Assembly: GCA_947178445.1 (NCBI GenBank)
Contig: CAMWYJ010000023.1
Span: 1 to 46,688, forward strand
DNA from: an uncultured Clostridium sp.
Lineage (GTDB): Bacteria > Bacillota > Clostridia > Lachnospirales > Lachnospiraceae
DNA length: 46,688 bases
Direction: 5' to 3'
Shown in pieces: positions 6,457 to 12,329 of the stretch; the first letter of the stretch is position 1; the number at the start of each line of letters is the position of its first letter. Under the pieces are notes generated by a model. That model was not told where the DNA came from and made no database searches. It saw nothing but the letters and a program-made list of their open reading frames with translations. The translations under genes were made by a program, and so were the position numbers.

Positions 6457-6698
6457 ATAAATTTCCCCTTCTGTATTATGTATATGTCTGATATTGATAT
6501 CTTATCAGAAAGGAGAGAAAAAAGCCAGTTTTTGGTGGGCAAGCCGGTCATTGTCTAAAAGATTCAGACGGCACAATATCATAAAGTGCTGTTTGGGGTT
6601 GCAAATATGCAAAATTATGATAAAATAGAATATAAGTTCGGAACATATGTTCTAATTTTGGATAAAATACAGACAGTGGATTGATATTGGAGGATGGA

Positions 6699-8183
6699 AT
6701 GGTCGTAATTGAGGATTTAACTTTGGAAGAGAAACTTACGATACTGTCAGATGCGGCAAAGTATGATGTGGCATGTACTTCGAGTGGTGTGGACCGGAAG
6801 GGAGAGAGCAATGGTATTGGGAATACTGTTGCCTGTGGTATCTGTCACAGCTTTGCAGCCGATGGAAGATGCATCTCTCTTCTTAAAATTCTATATACAA
6901 ATGAATGTATCTATGACTGTAAATATTGTGTGAACCGTATTTCGAATGATACACTGCGCACATCTTTCACACCGGAGGAGATTTGTGACCTGACACTTCA
7001 GTTTTACCGGCGCAATTACATAGAGGGATTGTTTCTAAGCTCTGGCATACGGAAGAATCCTACGCAGACGATGGAAGAGATTTATATCGCATTGAGATTA
7101 TTGAGGGAGAAACATCATTTTAATGGTTATATCCATGTGAAGGCAATCCCGGGAGCAGATCCGCAGGTGATTGAGCTTGTAGGATATCTGGCGGATCGCA
7201 TGAGTACGAACTTAGAGCTGCCTACAGCAGACGGACTGAAGGAACTGGCACCGAACAAGACAAGAAGGGCAATTTTGTCACCATTGCGTCAGATACAGCA
7301 GGGAATTGGAATGGGACAGCAAAGCGGAATTCATATGATTGGGAAAAACAGCGGGAAGGACCGTTCGTTATTTTTAGATAGAGATACTACCAAGAAAAAA
7401 GAGGACGGATGGAAACTTTCAAAGATAGGGAAGATTGATGCTTCCCAAAAAAAAGAGATGCTTTTAAAAAACACGGATGCAGGGGTACCTCAATTAAATC
7501 TTCCTGTTGTCTCAAAATCGTCTTTTGTTCCAGCAGGACAAAGTACACAGATGATTGTGGGAGCAACACCGGAGAATGATTACCAGATTTTGACGGTTGC
7601 GGAGGCTTTATACAGGAAGTTTGATTTAAAGAGAGTGTTTTACTCTGCTTATGTTGCGCTGAATGAAGATGAAAAGCTTCCGGCAGTCGGAACAAAGCCG
7701 CCGCTGCTGCGGGAACATAGATTGTATCAGGCGGACTGGCTGTTGCGGTTTTATGGGTTTGAGGCTGGTGAGCTTTTATCGGAGGAGAAACCTAATTTTA
7801 ATGTTTATATCGATCCAAAGTGCGAGTGGGCAATCCGGCATTTAGAATATTTTCCTGTAGAGGTTCAGACGGCTTCCTACCAGATGCTTTTGAGAGTTCC
7901 GGGAATCGGTGTAAAATCTGCCAGAAGAATCGTTGGTGCGAGGGTAAGTACAAAGCTTGATTTTGATGGACTTAGGCGGATTGGAGTTGTATTAAAGAGA
8001 GCGCATTATTTTATTACCTGTAATGGAAAGATGATGTATCAGACAAAGATAGAAGAGGACTATATTACAAGGCGGATATTAGAGCTGGATCAGCGTAAGA
8101 ATTGGGAACTGGATTATGATGTAACATTTAAGCAGTTATCCTTATTTGATGACAGTATGCCGCTGGCAGAGCAGCGTATGTAG
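6699..8183 (+). CDS. Putative DNA modification/repair radical SAM protein
   Basis: A 494-aa protein resembling the radical SAM family genetically linked to uracil-DNA glycosylase-type proteins. The cluster motif CX3CX2C is C70, C74 and C77 in ECIYDCKYC. The C-terminus holds a helix-hairpin-helix motif (LLRVPGIGVKSARRI), consistent with nucleic-acid binding. Between about residues 200 and 275 there is a lysine-rich, low-complexity stretch that seems longer than usual. I place the start at ATG 6699 because GGAGG ends 5 nt upstream; an upstream TTG at 6681 in frame is less likely. The next gene starts 10 nt after the stop, so the two are co-transcribed. The reaction is not known. Confidence 0.88.
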   Translation: MVVIEDLTLEEKLTILSDAAKYDVACTSSGVDRKGESNGIGNTVACGICHSFAADGRCISLLKILYTNECIYDCKYCVNRISNDTLRTSFTPEEICDLTLQFYRRNYIEGLFLSSGIRKNPTQTMEEIYIALRLLREKHHFNGYIHVKAIPGADPQVIELVGYLADRMSTNLELPTADGLKELAPNKTRRAILSPLRQIQQGIGMGQQSGIHMIGKNSGKDRSLFLDRDTTKKKEDGWKLSKIGKIDASQKKEMLLKNTDAGVPQLNLPVVSKSSFVPAGQSTQMIVGATPENDYQILTVAEALYRKFDLKRVFYSAYVALNEDEKLPAVGTKPPLLREHRLYQADWLLRFYGFEAGELLSEEKPNFNVYIDPKCEWAIRHLEYFPVEVQTASYQMLLRVPGIGVKSARRIVGARVSTKLDFDGLRRIGVVLKRAHYFITCNGKMMYQTKIEEDYITRRILELDQRKNWELDYDVTFKQLSLFDDSMPLAEQRM

Positions 8184-8193
8184 GAGGGAATGT

Positions 8194-8961
8194 ATGAGGA
8201 ACAGGATATGCTTTTTGTGTGAAGATACACCGGATGGTGTATTTACGGCAATTTATGATATATGGGCAGCGAGGATTTTAAGAGACGAGTTTTTTGTCCG
8301 GGTAGACCGGCAGCATGCCATACAGTTATTTGTAGATTATGAATATATAAAGACAGATATAGATAAAGCATTAAAGGTAATCCGGTCATTGCGGCAGAAG
8401 ATTGGACCAGAGGTATGTGACTGGGTTTACCATGCAGCATTATCCTATGAGGAGGACAAGGTAGATTGTATTTATGATTTTTTGAAACTTGCGTTTCGGT
8501 ATGGGACGAAGGTGACAAAGATGCATGGAGAAAGTACGGTATGCCGTATGTATGAGTTAGAAAGGAATGTTGGAAACGAGACGCATATGTTTTGCCAGTT
8601 TATCCGTTTTCGTGAATCACAGGAGGGGATTTTGATATCGAGGATTAATCCAAAGAACCAAGTGCTCCCCCTGCTGGCGGAGCATTTTTCTGATAGATTT
8701 TTGAACGAAGATTTTGTCATATTAGATGAAAACTATCAAATGGGACTGTTTCATCCAAGGAAAATGGATTGGTATCTTGCACCACTGCAAAGGGATGTAT
8801 TAGAGCACTTATGGGAAAGGGGGCAGTCTGCTCAATATGAAAGGCTTTGGAGAACATTTTTTCAAAACATTGGGATTGCAGAAAGGAGCAATTATCAGTG
8901 CCAGCGTAATATGTGTGCAATTCGGTATCGGGATTACATGACAGAATTCCATGGGGCATAG
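8194..8961 (+). CDS. TIGR03915-type 'probable DNA metabolism protein'
   Basis: A 255-aa protein paired with the upstream radical SAM gene. It opens with CFLCEDTPDGVFTAIYDIW, which is typical of the family that in some bacteria is fused to a uracil-DNA glycosylase domain. Here the protein ends without a glycosylase domain. Start ATG 8194 is set by AGGAGGG just upstream; an earlier in-frame ATG at 8146 lies inside the preceding gene and is unlikely. The pairing implies action on the same nucleic-acid substrate, but no biochemical role is established. Confidence 0.85.
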   Translation: MRNRICFLCEDTPDGVFTAIYDIWAARILRDEFFVRVDRQHAIQLFVDYEYIKTDIDKALKVIRSLRQKIGPEVCDWVYHAALSYEEDKVDCIYDFLKLAFRYGTKVTKMHGESTVCRMYELERNVGNETHMFCQFIRFRESQEGILISRINPKNQVLPLLAEHFSDRFLNEDFVILDENYQMGLFHPRKMDWYLAPLQRDVLEHLWERGQSAQYERLWRTFFQNIGIAERSNYQCQRNMCAIRYRDYMTEFHGA

Positions 8962-9491: not shown

Positions 9492-9659
9492 CTGTATTTG
9501 TGATATAATGTCACCAACCGAAGTGAAACGAGGTTGAATGGATTGCGATAATAATCCAAAGCTCAAGTCCATAAAGGAGTGTGGATGAGTCTGGCAATGT
9601 CATTTAATATATAGAAGTGGGAACGCAATAGCAGGTAATAAGTGGAAAGGATAAAAGAA

Positions 9660-12329
9660 ATGAAGAGACTGGCTGCGGGAATTCTTGCCCATGTAGATGC
9701 AGGAAAAACTACCTTATCAGAGAGTTTGTTATTTCATAGCGGAATGATTAAACAAATGGGTCGTGTGGATGCACAAAATGCATTTTTGGACACAGAAGAA
9801 TTAGAACGTGCAAGGGGGATCACTATTTTTTCAAAGCAGGCTGTTATGAAAATGGATGATGCAGTGATTACTCTGGTAGATACACCGGGACATGTGGATT
9901 TTTCTGCTGAAATGGAACGCTCTCTTTGGATTATGGATTATGCGATTTTAGTGATTAGTGGTGCAGATGGAATTCAGGGACACACTTTAACCCTATGGCG
10001 GCTACTGGAACGATATAAAATTCCGGTTTTTTTGTTTATAAATAAGATGGATCAGCCGGGAACAGAACAGAATGCATTATTAGCGGAATTGCAAAACCAT
10101 TTCGGCAGTGGATGTGTGGATTTTACAGATACACAAACGGAAGTATTTATAGAACAGATTGCAGTATGTGATGAACAGCTTATGGAGGAGTACTTAGAAG
10201 GCGGAGATATTACAGTTGAACAGATACAGGAATTAATTGCACAGCGCAAGGTATTTCCGTGTTATTTTGGCTCTGCATTGAAGGATGAGGGTGTGGAAGC
10301 ATTTTTGCAGGGTTTTTTGATGTATACAACGGAAAGGGGAAAATTAATAAAGCTTCCTGCAAAATCAAACCGGAATGAAGGAAGTAAAATACAAGATACA
10401 AGTGGCGACTCCATGTTAAATATGCAGCAAAGCTTTGGCGCAAGAGTATTTAAGATTGCAAGAGATGCACAGGGCAACAGGCTTACGTACATGAAGGTTA
10501 CAAGCGGTGTATTAAAAATTAAGGATATGGTGGTGAAATATAACAGAGGAAAAACAGAGTGGGAAGAAAAGAATAACCAGATCCGTATTTATTCCGGTGA
10601 GCACTTTGAAGTGGTACAAAAGGCAGAGGCAGGATGTGTCTGTGCGGTGACAGGACTTACAAAGACAAGACCGGGTGACGGATTAGGCTGTGAGAACCAG
10701 GCAGAGCTTCCGGTTTTGGAACCGGTACTTACGTATTCTGTGGAACTGCCGGAAGATGTGGATGCAGCAGTTATGCTTCCAAAGCTTTTGGAATTAGAGG
10801 AAGAAGAGCCGGAACTTCATGTAATCTGGGTGGAAGAGACGAAATCCATTCAGATTTCCATGATGGGTGAGGTACAGATTGAAATTCTTACAAAATTGAT
10901 TTTGGAACGCTATGGCATCTGTGTAAAATTTGATAAAGGAGATATCGTATATAAAGAAACGATTCGAAATACGGTGGAAGGTGTGGGACATTTTGAACCA
11001 TTGCGGCATTATGCAGAGGTGCATCTGCTGTTAGAGCCAGGAGAGCCTGGCAGTGGAATGCAGTTTATGGCTGATTGCAGTGAGGATGTGTTGAGCAAAA
11101 ACTGGCAGCGGTTGATTCTTACCCATTTAGAGGAGCGGGAGCATATAGGTGTTCTAACCGGTTCGGCTTTGACGGATATGCGTATTACAGTTGTTTCGGG
11201 ACGTGCACACACAAAGCATACCGAGGGAGGAGATTTCCGGCAGGCAACCTATCGGGCAGTGCGGCAGGGACTTATGCAGGCAGACAGCGTATTATTAGAG
11301 CCATATTATGATTTCAGAATGGAACTGCCTATGGAAATGGTGGGACGTGCTATGTATGATATAGAAAATATGTCAGGAACAGTAAACCCGCCACAGATAG
11401 AAGGGGAAATGGCAGTTCTTACCGGAAATGCCCCGGTTGCGACTATGCGGGATTACCAGATTGCGCTGAGTTCCTATACCAGAGGAACGGGAAGCCTTCT
11501 TTGTACTTTGAAGGGATATGATGTGTGCCACAATTTTGAAGAAGTGGTAACTGCAATGAAATACAATGCTGAGGAGGATATGGAGAATCTCTCATCTTCT
11601 GTATTTTGTTCTCATGGTGCAGGCTTTATTGTTCCATGGAACCAGGTGAAGGATTATATGCACGTGGAGAGCTGGTTAGAGAACTCTCACAGAGAAAAGC
11701 AGGAAGAAGAGTATTATGCAAACGCATTGAATAATATAGAGCATCAAAAAGCAGAGCCTGTGGAGTATTCCATTGATGAAGAACAGATCCAGGCAATCCT
11801 TAATCGGACCTTTCATGCGAATGAAAATACAAAGAAACAATGGAAACGGCATTCGAACCCTTTACCCGTTGTAACTGGTAAAAGGCAGCCAAAACCCAAA
11901 TATTCAGAAAAATATATGATAGTAGATGGATATAATATTGTACACGCATGGGAGGATTTAAAATGTCTTGTGGAGGATAACTTAGATGGTGCAAGGATGA
12001 GGCTTTTGGATATTCTTTCCAACTATCAGGCAGTTACAAAGTTAGAAACTATTGTGGTATTTGATGCCTATAAGGTAAAGGGAAATCTTGGTGAAATGTT
12101 TGATTATCACAATGTTCATGTCGTATATACAAAGGAGGCAGAGACGGCTGATGCATATATTGAGAAATTAACTCATGAAATATCGAAAGATTATCAGGTC
12201 ATAGTGGCGACTTCTGATGGATTAGTGCAGTTGATTACAAGAGGAAATAATTGTACTGTGATGTCAGCCAGGGAGCTTAAAGAAGATATTGAGCGGATAA
12301 ATGACAGCATTCGCAATTATCTCTCCTAA
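9660..12329 (+). CDS. TetM/EF-G-like translation GTPase fused to a C-terminal YacP/Rae1-like NYN domain
   Basis: An 889-aa protein. Residues 1 to about 640 match the ribosomal-protection (TetM/TetO-like) branch of EF-G proteins: G1 GILAHVDAGKTTLSES, switch segment ERARGITIFSKQA, G3 DTPGHVDFSAEMERSL, G4 NKMD, then beta-barrel and domain IV/V-like segments. A charged linker (about 650-750) leads to an NYN domain (about 750-889) with KYMIVDGYNIVHAW, VVFDAYKVKG, YTKEAETADAYIE, VATSDGLVQ and MSARELKED, the pattern of YacP. The acidic residues D756, D802, E828, D831 and D853 are present, so nuclease activity is possible. YacP of Bacillus subtilis is Rae1, a ribosome A-site endoribonuclease (known). 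Start ATG 9660 has AAAGG 9 nt upstream; GTG 9642 is an alternative. Tetracycline resistance cannot be inferred. Confidence 0.9.
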   Translation: MKRLAAGILAHVDAGKTTLSESLLFHSGMIKQMGRVDAQNAFLDTEELERARGITIFSKQAVMKMDDAVITLVDTPGHVDFSAEMERSLWIMDYAILVISGADGIQGHTLTLWRLLERYKIPVFLFINKMDQPGTEQNALLAELQNHFGSGCVDFTDTQTEVFIEQIAVCDEQLMEEYLEGGDITVEQIQELIAQRKVFPCYFGSALKDEGVEAFLQGFLMYTTERGKLIKLPAKSNRNEGSKIQDTSGDSMLNMQQSFGARVFKIARDAQGNRLTYMKVTSGVLKIKDMVVKYNRGKTEWEEKNNQIRIYSGEHFEVVQKAEAGCVCAVTGLTKTRPGDGLGCENQAELPVLEPVLTYSVELPEDVDAAVMLPKLLELEEEEPELHVIWVEETKSIQISMMGEVQIEILTKLILERYGICVKFDKGDIVYKETIRNTVEGVGHFEPLRHYAEVHLLLEPGEPGSGMQFMADCSEDVLSKNWQRLILTHLEEREHIGVLTGSALTDMRITVVSGRAHTKHTEGGDFRQATYRAVRQGLMQADSVLLEPYYDFRMELPMEMVGRAMYDIENMSGTVNPPQIEGEMAVLTGNAPVATMRDYQIALSSYTRGTGSLLCTLKGYDVCHNFEEVVTAMKYNAEEDMENLSSSVFCSHGAGFIVPWNQVKDYMHVESWLENSHREKQEEEYYANALNNIEHQKAEPVEYSIDEEQIQAILNRTFHANENTKKQWKRHSNPLPVVTGKRQPKPKYSEKYMIVDGYNIVHAWEDLKCLVEDNLDGARMRLLDILSNYQAVTKLETIVVFDAYKVKGNLGEMFDYHNVHVVYTKEAETADAYIEKLTHEISKDYQVIVATSDGLVQLITRGNNCTVMSARELKEDIERINDSIRNYLS

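Follow-up and report, generated by a model that had tools for sequence, protein, structure and literature searches.

A translational GTPase joined to a Rae1-type NYN nuclease domain in Lachnospiraceae, a possible device for mRNA cleavage at the ribosomal A site

Organization of the gene

The stretch of DNA analysed here (the window) comprises 46,688 nucleotides of contig CAMWYJ010000023.1 of an uncultured Clostridium sp. of the family Lachnospiraceae (GenBank assembly GCA_947178445.1), and the gene under study, coding for a GTPase joined to a nuclease domain, occupies positions 9660–12329 of its forward strand. It is an intact single open reading frame (ORF) ending at 12329, with two possible start codons, GTG at 9642 (895 amino acids, aa) and ATG at 9660 (889 aa), of which the latter is the likelier since the equivalent MKR opens the protein in several relatives from the genus. 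A Pfam search gave the domain order as an EF-G/TetM-type GTPase with domains I–V, a conserved tail, a variable linker, and an NYN_YacP domain, bearing out the fusion in one chain proposed in the initial annotation of this DNA, which was made from the sequence alone.

The G domain (GTP_EFTU, residues 5–221; 9672–10322) contains the P-loop AHVDAGKTT, the switch II DTPGH with H78, and the NKMD motif. It is followed by EF-G domains II and III (residues 260–424, with II at 260–342 and III at 354–424; 10437–10931), domain IV (residues 428–541; 10941–11282), whose tip reads AHTKHTEGGDF (residues 516–526; 11205–11237), and domain V (EFG_C, residues 544–624; 11289–11531). The conserved tail (residues 625–670; 11532–11669), with the consensus SVFCxHGAGFxVxWxxVxxYMH, is the C-terminal end of most unfused relatives. 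The linker (residues 671–748; 11670–11903) comprises a partly conserved helix at 707–719, in which E709, I713, and T717 are nearly invariant, and the Rae1-type NYN_YacP nuclease domain (residues 753–886; 11916–12317), with D756, D802, D831, and D853, closes the protein; all these features lie on the forward strand. For 24 genes, that of the window included, the fusion was read from the complete sequence; elsewhere it was judged from frame length. The alignment of fused proteins used for invariance, tail, and identity counts comprises 23 of these 24, L077 having been set aside for its large insertion. The GTPase motifs, H78 of DTPGH among them, are invariant in all 23.

The GTPase and its relation to Tet proteins and EF-G

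Trees of 56 and 69 proteins were built in quick searches, with support given by the Shimodaira–Hasegawa-like approximate likelihood ratio test (SH-aLRT) and with long-branch warnings for two rows; L099 was omitted from the smaller tree because of a wrong frame and included in the larger. Three groups separate in both trees, i.e., EF-G (support 100), the Tet group (96 and 95), and the clade of the window protein (98). The Tet group has six rows, namely TetM, TetO, TetW, TetB(P), an OtrA-like Rhizobium protein, and a Paenibacillus protein. When the trees are rooted on EF-G, the window's clade is the sister of the Tet group, and in both trees the window protein groups neither with EF-G nor inside the known Tet group.

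With Tet(M), Tet(O), Tet(W), TetB(P), and the OtrA-like protein the window protein shares the EF-G-like domains I–V and intact GTPase motifs expected of a Tet protein. The clade differs from them in motifs and in the added nuclease. The sequence SPxSTxADF, which forms the domain IV tip in Tet proteins (TetM residues 508–516), is present in five of the six Tet-group rows, the exception being the Paenibacillus row (L106), and in none of the 55 clade members, which have their own GHxEPLxHYAEV, an SxFC tail, and mostly KHTxGGDF at the tip. The latter is found in all 23 fused proteins, with lysine 519 aligning with TetM proline 509 as read from the alignment, whereas among the 32 unfused rows of the clade KHTxGGD is kept in 24 and lost in eight (E, V, or Q at the lysine). 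The domain IV tip is the part which we take to touch the decoding centre. Against the NCBIfam tet_protect model the window protein scored 414 bits, below the cut-off of 775. Identities taken from plasmid records are 42–53% inside the clade, 31–33% to TetB(P), and about 30% to EF-G and TetM/O.

On these comparisons the GTPase is placed in a separate group of translational GTPases beside the Tet group and, strictly speaking, does not count among the ribosomal-protection proteins. The ribosomal-protection type assigned to it initially thus stands as regards the EF-G/TetM-type domains I–V, but not as regards membership, given its own clade and the absent Tet tip; these two features and the subthreshold tet_protect score agree with the suspicion, voiced at the same time, of a wrong tetracycline-resistance label. 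Clade members bear database names of either TetM/TetW/TetO/TetS family resistance proteins or translation factor GTPase family proteins, and the resistance name is probably wrong for them. A precedent for doubtful Tet names on translation factors is EF-G2 of Bacteroides thetaiotaomicron (7uvp, 8dmf), a chain named TetQ while the same sequence is titled EF-G2; it is presumably a different protein, devoid of a nuclease domain. Moreover, plasmid records of Ligilactobacillus salivarius with an unfused clade member have neighbouring accessions of the same source label that carry tet(M) (H99/H139 and H100/H140), which hints that the clade gene alone gives no useful resistance. On the L. salivarius plasmid pHN3 (L187, 5403–7920) the unfused GTPase gene adjoins rpsN, coding for the 30S protein S14, and a gene for a putative metal homeostasis protein.

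The NYN domain

The C-terminal part was initially assigned to YacP, with a profile search proposed as a check. In that search residues 753–886 matched NYN_YacP (PF05991) far above the Pfam cut-off (E 1.1e-44; 152.8 bits against 24.6), and this part also matches the solved chains of Bacillus subtilis YacP (Rae1; 5mq8/5mq9) with E 2.6e-21, sharing with them the NYN core and the conserved acids. The four aspartates were correctly positioned in the initial annotation. They are invariant, together with N759 and T851, in all 23 fused proteins, and the same core columns are invariant in 15 stand-alone YacP proteins (a set from which L078, L079, and further stand-alone loci were left out); loss of the acids was not seen among these homologues.

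An AlphaFold2 model based on 16 sequences (the window protein and related loci) had a mean predicted local distance difference test score (pLDDT) of 79.7 and a predicted template modelling score (pTM) of 0.62, the latter leaving the relative placing of the modules unfixed. Segments with pLDDT below 50 are 34–56, 227–256, 695–706, 718–747, and 855–862, two of them within the linker. Residues 751–888 were modelled as alternating strands and helices with ten-residue pLDDT means of 79–93, except for 64 at 801–810, 56 at 851–860, and 70 at 861–870, so that the model is less certain around D802 and D853. A Foldseek search with the whole model returned EF-G-type chains only and no PIN/NYN structural match among the 50 matches listed, and the NYN fold therefore follows from the sequence match and the predicted alternation. 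The structure prediction once proposed for the C-terminus has accordingly provided the expected strands and helices but not a direct PIN/NYN counterpart among the Foldseek rows listed.

Conservation was compared in 14 proteins of the genus, with L242 (cut), L245, and fragments left out. Domain IV has the highest mean pairwise identity (0.80), followed by NYN (0.77), the G domain and the tail (0.65 each), domains II, III, and V (0.61–0.62), and the linker (0.45). Domain IV is again the highest, at 0.69, in the broader set of 23 fused proteins.

Stand-alone YacP proteins, of about 170–200 aa, have a conserved C-terminal tail, N.L..E..R, each position of which is kept in 15 of 15 of them, whereas in the window protein, with its domain joined to a GTPase, this tail is missing. 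It is likewise absent from the 14 genus relatives whose C-termini were compared, and its four positions are kept in 13, 16, 14, and 10 of the 23 fused proteins. The arginine of GAxRxSA shows a similar difference (15 of 15 stand-alone against 10 of 23 fused proteins). The rae1 suppressors of B. subtilis read as loss of function include R166P and a deletion that removes nucleotides 469–473 (PMC6613710); R166 aligns one residue past the conserved tail arginine. If the GTPase had taken over docking, a tail needed before the fusion would be expected to disappear after it, and the decay of the tail points to a way in which Rae1-type nucleases can reach their ribosome.

Distribution

In the window genome (90% complete, 165 contigs) the only PF05991 match is the window gene itself, and so no separate yacP/rae1 was found, a point on which the initial annotation had asked for a check. 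The genome also contains two further genes with EF-G domain IV and a transfer-messenger RNA (tmRNA) gene. All 18 genomes of the genus, this one included, have a match to the protein, some of them cut or in pieces. In the family, surveyed with one genome per genus (n=150), a YacP domain is found in 135 genomes and none in 15. In 119 of the 150 genera the frame with the best YacP match is of fused size, with 840 aa or more; among the remaining 16 YacP-bearing genomes there are 12 frames of 174–271 aa, some at contig ends, and four of 516–735 aa. The gene is mostly present in a single copy.

Fused-size frames also occur in other families of the order. Its 246 sampled genomes divide into 77 with a fused-type gene, 27 with an unfused GTPase, 109 with YacP only, and 33 with neither; 72 of the 77 fused-type genes are frames of at least 848 aa and five are cut, broken, or short, a YacP match being present in 75 of these genomes. 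Among the matches listed (the best 80 loci, mostly EF-G), the fused relatives that bear names come mainly from Lachnospiraceae and other Clostridia. In the class Bacilli, to which Neobacillus cucumis belongs, a match to domain IV and the tail was found in 39 of 299 genomes, and none of the 39 is in a fused-size frame, all lying in frames of up to 709 aa. Judging by this distribution, the gene is widespread and not a recent acquisition in the family, and it looks more like a household gene than a tetracycline-resistance gene. Two unannotated faecal records filed as "Bacteriophage sp." (MT835563.1 and MT835514.1) contain a full-length match to the fused protein with 50–51% identity; they may be misfiled bacterial contigs.

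Split and fused forms

Alignments of 25 unfused relatives end, in 21 cases, at window residue 668–671 and in the other four at 648, 658, 667, and 678. The 21 stop where the linker begins, and the fused protein is therefore an unfused GTPase to which a linker and an NYN domain are added. In the order, a separate YacP in a frame of 171–226 aa accompanies the unfused GTPase in 26 of 27 genomes, the exception being G161, which is 77% complete. In the family, the GTPase is present in five of nine tested genomes with stand-alone YacP and in none of the 15 without YacP; in one of the five (G099) the GTPase match lies at a contig end, and two of the four GTPase-less ones are 67% and 87% complete. This test omitted G095 and G128 (contig ends) and the four genomes with frames of 516–735 aa, while G042 was counted apart. 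Fisher tests of the co-occurrence of GTPase and YacP, not corrected for kinship, gave p values of 0.018 for the order and 0.003 for the family. In G338, G329, and G308, whose coordinates could be compared on a single contig, a long distance separates the two genes.

The fused proteins form one supported group (99 in the 56-protein tree and 97 in the 69-protein tree). Inside it lies the locus of G042 (L079), where the GTPase (711 aa) and the NYN domain (190 aa) are encoded by adjacent separate frames, either a natural split or a frameshift. A tree of the NYN domain alone is poorly resolved, with four of 35 inner branches starred, and does not time the fusion. In another fused protein, L077 of G130 (1,076 aa), the linker is very long and rich in glycine and serine, and the NYN domain is interrupted by an insertion.

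Gene surroundings

No operon partner emerged when the genes flanking the 24 fused loci, up to five on either side, were clustered. The most frequent cluster, an ABC-ATPase by its look, is common to seven of them only and at scattered positions, and an operon partner was accordingly rejected. PADLOC gave no match, and a scan of ten neighbouring genes in the window revealed no defence family; a defence system was rejected on this ground. The 5' leader of the gene contains a 16-codon ORF (9537–9587) with a GAGG Shine–Dalgarno-like site, for which no counterpart was seen by eye upstream in the genus relatives. Further upstream (6681–8961) a radical S-adenosylmethionine (SAM)-like protein, scoring below the Pfam cut-off, and a DUF4130 protein are encoded in overlapping frames, probably an ordinary linked pair.

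Possible mode of action

The reading we favour, though with a probability just short of even, is that of an mRNA endonuclease of the Rae1 type, dependent on the ribosome, that forms one chain with a translational GTPase, by which it would be delivered to, or gated at, the A site. Rae1 is described as an A-site endoribonuclease and a translation-dependent mRNA nuclease of B. subtilis. In the fused protein, the GTPase in its GTP form would enter the A site of a paused ribosome, its domain IV reaching the decoding centre via the KHTxGGDF tip, and the tethered NYN domain would thereby be brought to the ribosome. Upon GTP hydrolysis domain IV would withdraw, and the NYN domain on its flexible linker could then cut the A-site mRNA, whose truncated product would pass to tmRNA rescue and decay. 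Docking would thus be taken over by the GTPase, while in stand-alone Rae1 it may rest partly on the protein's own C-terminal tail. Delivery or gating is favoured by the parts themselves, their conservation, their distribution, and the decay of the tail; in addition, the catalytic residues are kept in both modules, and a single YacP was found in the genome. RelE-family A-site endonuclease toxins have an unrelated fold and act in a toxin–antitoxin context. Cutting of mRNA in the A site would be the act common to both.

The architecture as such is not new, since Atkinson 2015 (PMC4342817) described Tet proteins of ten Clostridiales species that gained a YacP-like NYN RNase domain, a possible new resistance mechanism. 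The window gene is almost surely of that type. Those proteins were counted there in the Tet subfamily, whereas the proteins compared here form a separate clade that is widespread in the family, lacks the Tet tip, provides the sole YacP found in the window genome, and has a split counterpart in relatives. What is added here is the distribution, the clade of its own, the history of split and fused forms, and the conservation with the tail decay. No other publication joining YacP/NYN with Tet, EF-G, or a translational GTPase was found among the matches listed, in a search that mostly did not extend to subscription journals. As had been supposed initially, no function is described for such proteins in the literature searched.

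Several points weigh against the delivery reading. Binding of the fused protein to the ribosome and mRNA cleavage are what we infer from sequence, and domain IV and the nuclease presumably cannot share the A site, which forces a two-step model. Conserved neighbour genes are missing from the 24 fused loci. The excess conservation of NYN is limited to the genus, as in the broader set its identity (0.56) is no better than that of the G domain (0.58), and several fused proteins retain the Rae1 tail. Fused and stand-alone YacP occur together in G316 and G342, on which account a strict either-or rule for the two forms was rejected, and there is a second match in G170 and G199. YacP is present without the GTPase in 109 of 142 genomes of the order, from which it follows that the nuclease does not need the GTPase. 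The reverse rule, that the GTPase needs YacP, is supported in the window's order but not in Bacilli, where the GTPase is found in 37 of 286 YacP-bearing and two of 13 YacP-less genomes, i.e., without association. Finally, an unfused clade (support 98) is nested inside the fused group. It comprises two Bifidobacterium proteins and those of a Collinsella, an L. salivarius plasmid, and two Bacilli genomes, and YacP was not found in either the Bifidobacterium or the Bacilli genomes (G390, G391, G602, and G673); Collinsella has a weaker YacP match, and for L. salivarius the plasmid alone was searched. The GTPase can thus be kept, and be useful, alone. As to history, the trees suggest that there was probably a single fusion followed by transfer with loss of the nuclease in one clade, more fusions being conceivable.

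Alternative explanations

The main rivals are two independent jobs and antibiotic protection. Under the former, which we hold unlikely, the GTPase would have a function of its own, e.g., in pause resolution, a task that EF-G paralogues may perform; the Rae1 domain would ride along or be held at a constant dosage. This explanation stays alive through the nested clade devoid of the nuclease and through the Bacilli, in which GTPase and YacP are not associated, and it also accords with the many genomes with YacP and no GTPase and with a long, variable linker. It is at odds with the fused size being kept in 119 of the 150 family genera, with the co-occurrence of GTPase and YacP in the order and family, and with the relaxed Rae1 tail of the fused form.

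Protection against tetracycline or another A-site drug or toxin, in which the GTPase would dislodge the inhibitor and the nuclease clear the stalled mRNA, is close to the suggestion of Atkinson 2015 and ranks next, likewise at a low probability. The EF-G/TetM fold and a sister relationship with the Tet group instead of EF-G agree with it, as does the occurrence of unfused clade members in genomes of the class Bacilli, from which a chromosomal "TetM" of Bacillus toyonensis is reported as an intrinsic tetracycline resistance gene (PMC5209696). Primers for that gene had six mismatches in their best match among 233 loci and a single three-mismatch match among 398 genomes; the B. toyonensis protein could not be placed, for which reason this rival stays alive. 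Counting against it are the absence of the Tet tip from the clade, the tet_protect score, an identity to Tet proteins (29–33%) about equal to that to EF-G, and a presence across the family that is anything but sporadic.

Maturation of rRNA and tRNA was the first role proposed for YacP-like NYN domains (as cited in PMC4342817). A role in ribosome or stable-RNA maturation, with the GTPase docking on subunits and the NYN domain trimming rRNA or tRNA, is nevertheless improbable, as B. subtilis Rae1 is described as a translation-dependent mRNA nuclease. Furthermore, EF-G-type factors act on 70S ribosomes. Least probable by far is an anti-phage or stress shut-off device cutting mRNA on ribosomes under attack, since, although ribosome-linked nucleases occur in defence, the gene is mostly single-copy and widespread in the family, its neighbours are not shared across the 24 loci, PADLOC gave no match, and the ten scanned window neighbours contain no defence family.

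Significance

Resistance names on clade members, probably wrong, bear on resistome counts. Even if the two parts have separate jobs, the clade is a widespread group of translational GTPases for which no described function was found in the literature searched. If the delivery reading is true, the protein would be an energy-consuming mRNA-cutting machine on the ribosome, timed by its GTPase, and the gene would open a way into the mRNA quality control of Lachnospiraceae-like bacteria. It is possible, although we put the chance somewhat lower than that of the reading itself, that in most genera of the family the binding and hydrolysis of GTP set the time at which a built-in Rae1 nuclease cuts A-site mRNA and select the ribosomes concerned, as the normal route of mRNA surveillance.

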